Origin: Parasphingorhabdus sp.
GTDB lineage: Bacteria; Pseudomonadota; Alphaproteobacteria; Sphingomonadales; Sphingomonadaceae
Assembly (NCBI GenBank): GCA_030373505.1
Contig: JAUCYS010000001.1
Location: 62,001-126,000 of the forward strand
Direction: 5' to 3'
DNA length: 64,000 bases
The notes beneath the pieces were generated by a model that searched no databases, was not told the DNA's origin, and saw only the letters and a list, made by a program, of their open reading frames with translations. Positions 14,475 through 64,000 of this stretch are shown here, in pieces. Within the stretch, counting starts at the first letter, position 1. Every line of letters begins with the position of its first letter. A program made the translations under genes and the position numbers.

Positions 14475-14912
14475 TCAGTCCTTGGCGAACAGCTGGTCAT
14501 CGCTGGCAAAGGCCTTGAATTCCAGCGCATTGCCGCTCGGGTCCTGAAAGAACATCGTCGCCTGTTCGCCGACCTGCCCGCGGAAACGGACCGTCGGCGC
14601 GATGACAAAGGCGATCGCCGCTGCGGTCAGCCGGTCGGCCAGCACCTGCCATTCTGACATCGTCAGCACGACGCCGAAATGCGGCACCGGGACCTGCTCG
14701 CCATCGACCGGATTGGCCAGCGGCCGCGGCTCGAAATTCTCGTCGAGATGAGCGACAATCTGATGCCCGTAGAGGCTGAAGTCGATCCAGTGCGGGTCGC
14801 TGCGGCCTTCTGCGCAGCCAAGCAGCCCGCCGTAGAAATTGCGGGCGGCGTCGAGATCATGGACCGGGAAGGCGAGATGGAAGGGGCGCACGGCGGCGGC
14901 ATCAGTGTTCAT
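14475..14912 (-). CDS. VOC (glyoxalase/bleomycin-resistance) family protein
   Basis: A 145-residue vicinal-oxygen-chelate fold protein made of two babbb modules: the first opens with [20 protein letters not shown] and the second with [10 protein letters not shown], closing with [14 protein letters not shown]. Candidate metal ligands are His12 and His of HFGVV plus Glu near the C terminus (LEFK). Members act as dioxygenases, isomerases or resistance proteins, and the reaction here is not evident. Its start overlaps by eleven bases the end of the hypothetical gene upstream, so the two are co-transcribed. Confidence 0.85.
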
Positions 14913-62912: not shown

Positions 62913-63504
62913 TCAGGCGGCGCAGAAGTCCGTCATCAGCACCACCTTGCGGATCATCGCCGGATCATAGTCGATCTGGCCGTCGAGGATCAGCATCGCC
63001 AGGCCATGGACCAGCGACCAGGCGTGCAGCGTTGCCGCAGTACGCTCCTCCGATGCAAGGTCGCCCGGCATCTTTGCCGCTATGCCCTTGCGCAACTGGC
63101 GGAAGGCCTCGCCCATCGCGGACGGATCGTCGATCGCGAGATCGACCCGGCCGACCCGGCTGTAGATCAGGCGGAGCAGAGCGGGATGCTGGACCGCCCA
63201 TTCGACATAGGTGATGCCGACCTCGGCAAAGCCGGCCTCACCGCCACCGGCAGCTGTCCGCCGCTTCGGCCTGACTGTGACCGAGGCGGCTTAGGCCTTC
63301 CCAGGGCCAGCGCGTCGAGCAGCGCATCCTTGTTCGGGAAGTGCCGATAGAGCGCGGTTGCCGACACGCCGAGATCGCGGGCCAGGGCGCGCAGCCCGAG
63401 GTCTGGCTGTTCCTGATCAGCCAGCTTTCCATGCCCATCTGCAGCGCTGCCGCGCGCAGGTCGCCGTGATGATAGGGCGCGTTCACTGGAAGAACTGGAA
63501 GCAT
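62913..63504 (-). pseudogene. TetR family regulator interrupted by three frameshifts
   Basis: The pieces of one TetR protein are spread over three reading frames. From ATG 63504 the first frame gives the N terminus (YHHGDLRAAALQMGME). Near 63425 it must switch to the frame that holds the recognition helix (LGLRALARDLGVSATALYRH). Near 63300 it returns to the first frame (EGLSRLGHSQAEAAD), and near 63255 it switches to a third frame (AGFAEVGITYVEWAVQHP) that reads to the stop at 62913 (VLMTDFCAA). Joined, the pieces make a normal protein of about 195 residues. The three events are one missing base and two extra bases. As given the gene cannot make a full regulator; base-calling error is a real alternative. 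Confidence 0.8.
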
Positions 63505-63525
63505 GTTCTGCTTCCCCGAAAAGCC

Positions 63526-63544
63526 ATGTTGACACTGTTAGCAT
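63526..63544. promoter_or_regulatory. candidate TetR operator and promoter of the carotenoid oxygenase gene
   Basis: ATGTTGACACTGTTAGCAT is a near-palindrome (14 of 19 positions symmetric) in the divergent gap; it contains a TTGACA -35-like box for the oxygenase gene. Confidence 0.45.
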
Positions 63545-63631
63545 TGATTGGCATGTTAACGGCATAAACATTGCGAGTCGATTTGCCAATAGTCGTGTTG
63601 CCGATTTTGCGATCAAGGAAAGGAACCGCCG

Positions 63632-64000
63632 ATGGCCTCCGTAATCGAGAAAACAATCCGTTCCGCCGTGACTCCGGTGATTGCCGCCGTCGCCAATTAT
63701 AACCGCAAGCGGCTGCCCGAACCCAATGGCGGCCATCCGTTTCTCGACGGGCTGCATGCGCCGATGGCGAGCGAGGAAACGATTTCGGCGATGCAGGTGA
63801 CGGGCACGATCCCCGACCAGCTCGACGGGCGTTATCTGAGGATCGGGCCCAATCCGCTGAAAAAACCGCACAGCCCCAGCCATCACTGGTTTGTCGGCGA
63901 CGGCATGGCGCATGGCATCCGGATCAGGGGCGGCGAGGCGGTCTGGTATCGCAACCGCTGGATCCGCAGCAATGCGGTGAGCGATGCGCTGGGCGAACCG
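63632..64000 (+). CDS. carotenoid oxygenase, 5' part only
   Basis: The first 123 codons of a gene that runs off the window. The protein opens MASVIEKTIRSAV and has PEPNGGHPFLDGLHAPM, DGRYLRIGPNP and HHWFVGDGMAHGIRI, which match the N-terminal blade of the carotenoid-cleavage/lignostilbene dioxygenase family. The first iron-ligand His is not yet reached. Members cleave carotenoids or stilbenes at double bonds with oxygen. AAGGAAAGGAAC precedes the ATG. The broken TetR gene is divergent and was probably its regulator. Confidence 0.88.
   Translation, partial: MASVIEKTIRSAVTPVIAAVANYNRKRLPEPNGGHPFLDGLHAPMASEETISAMQVTGTIPDQLDGRYLRIGPNPLKKPHSPSHHWFVGDGMAHGIRIRGGEAVWYRNRWIRSNAVSDALGEP

Follow-up and report, generated by a model that had tools for sequence, protein, structure and literature searches.

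The window analysed here, a 64,000-nucleotide stretch of a Parasphingorhabdus draft genome (bases 62001–126000 of contig 28; 3.13 Mb in 28 contigs, with an estimated completeness of 87.9%), ends in a divergent pair of genes. On the minus strand, positions 62913–63504 hold a gene for a TetR-type regulator with a TetR_N and a putative TetR_C_33 domain (hereafter tetR), the frame of which is interrupted three times; on the plus strand, a dioxygenase gene begins at 63632 and continues beyond the window end at 64000. The dioxygenase frame is open and encodes 480 aa (complete in locus L001, 2333–3772), and its product scored 784.9 bits against NF052295 (cut-off 675), with residues 12–479 matched; by this curated score it is an 8'-apo-carotenoid 13,14-cleaving dioxygenase, for which cleavage at the 13,14 position is predicted. 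The genes on either side of tetR are both open throughout, including the adjoining sulfatase gene, which shows one 2-base gap in a pairwise alignment yet remains open. Three further features lie in or before the start of tetR: two 19-bp dyads that are putative TetR operators (63526–63544 and 63553–63571, no strand assigned) and one copy of a clade-specific dispersed motif, TGGAAGNNNTGGAAGCAT (63487–63504, plus strand), whose CAT end is the start codon of tetR on the minus strand.

A reading made from the sequence alone had described the regulator as pieces lying in three frames within 592 bases, and the reading frames and domain matches agree with that description. The first piece (63427–63504, inner edge approximate) carries the start and the N-terminus, MLPVLPVNAPYHHGDL...; the second (63302–63425, edges approximate) lies in another frame and contains the helix-turn-helix, matching TetR_N with an E-value of 2.4e-9 (37.2 bits, cut-off 24; profile positions 17–47 of 47); the third (63257–63300, edges approximate) returns to the frame of the first; and the fourth (62913–63254), in the third frame, contains the putative C-terminal domain. 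The TetR_C_33 match, that of a 67-aa piece, reached 26.1 bits, just below the cut-off of 26.8; the C-terminal piece matched a profile of orthologs with E 2e-58. In an alignment with nine intact relatives, the frame shifts by one base at three points over ~170 bases, close to 63426, 63301 and 63256 (one base fewer and two more), and the same three were recovered by a different aligner in a pairwise comparison with one relative. None of the three falls within a homopolymer of four bases or more. As assembled, tetR therefore lacks a continuous single reading frame on account of these three changes.

The ortholog profile, built from 19 intact orthologs, was then used to search 32 genomes of the genus with a match threshold of E 1e-20. 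Matches were obtained in 29 of them; the gene formed one open frame in 28, and the genome under study alone carried a broken gene, seen as two separate matches. One of the 28 (G008) was listed with one stop because the profile match extends beyond the gene start, yet its 196-aa open reading frame (ORF) is whole. The profile found no match in G002, G017 and G021, which are 80, 97 and 73% complete, respectively. The closest of the 32 genomes shows only 79–80% identity at the tetR locus, so no second genome of the same species is among them. Within the genome under study (87.9% complete), no second relative of the regulator was detected at E 1e-20, and a paralog replacing the broken gene was rejected on this basis.

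Comparable loci are found in named species. Parasphingorhabdus flavimaris and P. marina likewise have the orthologous regulator, both dyads and the dioxygenase gene adjoining, but each encodes the regulator in a single frame, of 196 aa in P. flavimaris and 193 aa in P. marina, and the latter differs further by a small ORF between the two genes. Among several relatives, a small ORF, membrane-protein-like by eye, separates tetR from the dioxygenase gene at loci L011, L021, L027, L028, L033 and L035. On plasmid pNL2 of Novosphingobium aromaticivorans, a TetR/AcrR regulator (SARO_RS18770) and an 8'-apo-carotenoid 13,14-cleaving dioxygenase (SARO_RS18775) form a similarly divergent pair, although this is a different genus, the regulator is annotated as whole and the DNA match is patchy (11% query coverage). 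Among solved structures, the best match of the ortholog profile was PDB 3on2 ('Probable transcriptional regulator'; profile positions 17–189, E 1.3e-19), a distant relationship.

The block upstream of tetR proved to be strongly conserved. The dyad at 63526–63544, already noticed in the sequence-only reading, is present as a zero-mismatch match to ATGYTRACANTGTYARCAT, and the second, weaker dyad of similar pattern at 63553–63571 lies 27 bp from it. Elsewhere in the window, ATGYTRACANTGTYARCAT was matched once, at 14651 with three mismatches, and shuffled sequence gave a mean of 0.09 matches at three or fewer mismatches, a figure that is not independent because the pattern was derived from the site. 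The core of the dyad block upstream of tetR is conserved in 27 of 28 genus relatives: ATGTTTATGnTGTTAACAT (tetR strand) was found in 27, with a one-base difference in G003 and in the genome under study, and TAACAGTGTCAACAT likewise in 27, preceded by ATGn in 16 (as in the genome under study) and by AAGn in 11, the one relative lacking it being G001. The second dyad is one base off the form shared by 27 of the 28 relatives, the same change being present in G003. The distance from dyad to dyad was 27 bases in all 29 loci that have both, including the locus described here and that of G033, a member of another genus whose dyads show one changed base. Furthermore, the N-S-V-N codons of the dyad block showed no third-base variation, so that the DNA itself seems to be conserved. 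We regard the two dyads as putative operators of the tetR product.

The sequence-only reading had also placed a good promoter before the dioxygenase gene; this could not be upheld, as a simple scan of 63400–63700 returned no sigma-70 promoter. A TTGACA hexamer is present at 63529–63534, inside the first dyad, and a simple scan found no terminator near the tetR start. At one locus (L013, G001), tetR is intact and one dyad has been lost through a 27-base deletion, equal to the dyad spacing. In part of the genus (loci L022–L038), the frame of the regulator runs open through the dyad block, which may form its N-terminus; in the group of the genome under study, tetR starts further in, inside the dispersed motif.

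To describe constraint on the interrupted gene, tetR was read in its ancestral frame (185 codons), which gave pairwise dN/dS values of 0.12–0.25 against nine relatives, compared with 0.06–0.17 for pairs of intact relatives. Across the 28 intact orthologs, 88 of 186 alignment columns are invariant, and the broken gene is identical at all 88. At other positions it has changed quickly: in a three-genome comparison its share of amino-acid change on its own branch was 0.564, above every one of 51 control genes (median 0.271, maximum 0.475; controls being those with a total dN of at least 0.05 among 73, with the ORF antisense to tetR left out). Its share of silent change was also high (0.400 versus a control median of 0.228), and its branch dN/dS of 0.235 was reached by 6 of 69 controls, from a 74-gene set that still included the antisense ORF. 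Residues unseen in any ortholog at their column numbered eight in this gene, eight in G010 and three each in G005, G012 and G015, and the terminal branch of the gene ranked fourth longest of 29. Complete retention of the invariant residues together with fast change elsewhere indicates that tetR evolves quickly at free positions and that its protein was under selection until very recently.

Silent divergence on the same branch amounts to ~0.39 substitutions per synonymous site, and the lack of any change at the 88 invariant columns caps a neutral phase at ~0.015 synonymous substitutions per site, or ~4% of the branch. The best-case probability that two further real indels arose in that time while all 88 invariant codons stayed untouched was 0.5–4%, calculated with three assumed indel-to-substitution ratios (0.05, 0.1 and 0.2); for one Pseudoalteromonas, the counts given are 41 indels to 205 substitutions (PMC12053903).

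Frame changes elsewhere on the contig were surveyed by comparison with the relative G005. By tblastn, 13 of 277 genes on the contig showed one frame change each. In 8 of them it fell within the initial quarter, and 2 had a piece below 50% identity; the remaining three satisfied a stricter rule, by which the change must lie past the initial quarter and be flanked on each side by sequence of 70% identity or more. They comprise tetR and two others, one located near 407.6 kb and one with the change close to its own end. In the reverse direction, 13 of 272 G005 genes were flagged, and 2 of 272 under the stricter rule. A base-level comparison of interior gaps of one or two bases flagged 13 of 270 genes on our contig; run in reverse, it flagged 11 of 264. 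Because the numbers of genes flagged by tblastn are alike in both directions, poor base quality over the whole contig was rejected; the remainder of the contig is fairly clean, so any error must be very local.

The base-level comparison also brought out a second clump of such changes: a 73-base stretch towards the end of a gene unrelated to tetR (404740–404812 of contig 28; L076 18740–18812) contains four additional single bases. All four extra bases are lacking in each of the 11 relatives aligned (12 loci kept, from 29 genomes with a match, 28 besides the genome under study), and in the reverse comparison more than two gaps of one or two bases were seen in none of the 264 genes save this one. 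Of the 13 genes flagged at base level on our contig, the alignments inspected besides tetR were of a phosphatase-like gene, a glutathione-S-transferase-like gene (both named by reading their peptides) and a gene with gaps before its likely start; four of the other nine have two gaps. An isolated extra base at ~407,610 of the contig (L077), in the glutathione-S-transferase-like gene, was compared with G005 only.

At face value, the locus would present a repressor that was lost while its operator remained, and the sequence-only reading had weighed recent loss of this kind against base-calling error. Of these two accounts the latter is favoured and the former less so: the retention of all 88 invariant residues, the preserved dyads and a second insertion clump found only in this assembly argue for local error over loss of regulation. 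Local errors also account more readily than two independent losses would for a pair of clumps in genes that are unrelated and otherwise conserved. On the comparative sequence evidence, the three frame changes are thus probably errors of the sequence or its assembly, confined to this region, and tetR is likely to be an ordinary and functional gene in the cell. A functional TetR-type repressor, transcribed away from the carotenoid-cleaving dioxygenase gene, would then bind the intergenic region at two 19-bp operators in tandem and repress the dioxygenase, the extra and missing bases in tetR being artefacts of the local sequence or assembly. Local errors in a draft genome can in this manner mimic the loss of a repressor with a retained operator; the locus nevertheless yields two well-conserved dyads, together with a regulator–enzyme pair that is open to testing.

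We consider it rather unlikely that the loss is real and very recent, three small changes having disabled the repressor, orphaned the operators and left the dioxygenase possibly constitutive. The frame changes are present in the assembled sequence beside an open dioxygenase gene, the accelerated amino-acid change on the branch of this genome fits relaxed selection, the terminal branch is among the longest of the set, and three other genomes of the genus are without a match to tetR, although two of these are only 73–80% complete. The cleanness of the remaining contig and the position of all three changes outside homopolymers of four bases or more also speak against error. However, three independent indels are improbable within so short a neutral phase, the second clump elsewhere indicates error, and relaxed selection is itself weakened by the raised share of silent change and by the controls that reach the same branch dN/dS. 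Recoding by programmed frameshifts, or separate production of the helix-turn-helix piece from an upstream start, is very improbable: the helix-turn-helix frame is indeed open upstream through the dyad region, but recoding would need three shifts of mixed sign in a gene that forms one plain frame in all 28 relatives possessing it. An old pseudogene decaying without selection, to which the raised dN on this branch might point, was rejected as having next to no probability, with none of the 88 invariant residues changed, the dyads kept and the pairwise dN/dS values set against those of intact pairs as given above.

The more unusual feature of the locus is the motif at the start of tetR. It was found unexpectedly, when a search of the genome with the tetR-start stretch matched short perfect copies elsewhere. 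Allowing up to three mismatches to a 20-base form, the genome contains 40 copies, divided 21 to 19 between the strands, whereas the reversed control of this form gave zero copies; among the 27 of these 40 sites that were aligned, CTGGAAGAACTGGAAGCATGTT is the commonest form of the core. A survey of 98 genomes (32 of the genus and 66 others) with TGGAAGRAYTGGAAGCAT at one mismatch or fewer revealed 13–40 copies in 14 of the genus genomes, one or two copies in 2 and none in 16, compared with a single copy in 3 of the 66 other genomes and none in 63; the reversed control occurred once across all 98. Context was examined for 27 of the 40 sites, which showed copies within open frames of both orientations (translated as LEELEAC or HASSSSS), copies that are apparently intergenic and copies at some gene starts, such as those of tetR and of a gene whose peptide reads as the GyrB N-terminus.

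Copies are partly retained between relatives. In 400 kb of G005, all four motif sites were orthologous to sites in the genome under study, with flanks 78–89% identical; conversely, of the seven sites on our contig, four had a copy in G005, one had decayed (15 of 18 bases) and two were not alignable. We take the motif to be a putative protein-binding site. More tentatively, and with slightly less than even confidence, we suggest that it could be recognised by a DNA-binding protein specific to this clade, with a role in organising or regulating the chromosome; if bound here, such a protein would cover the tetR start. A search of 5.39 million open papers for the motif, spelled out in six forms, returned no paper. 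The middle bases of the motif vary by species, being mostly GAAC in the genome under study, GAAT in G005 and GATT in G024. Spacing of the copies was mixed: in G010 the smallest gap was 22.6 kb, equalled in a fraction of 0.000 of 5000 random draws, whereas spacing in G024 was ordinary (0.254), and regular spacing was accordingly rejected as a general property of the motif.
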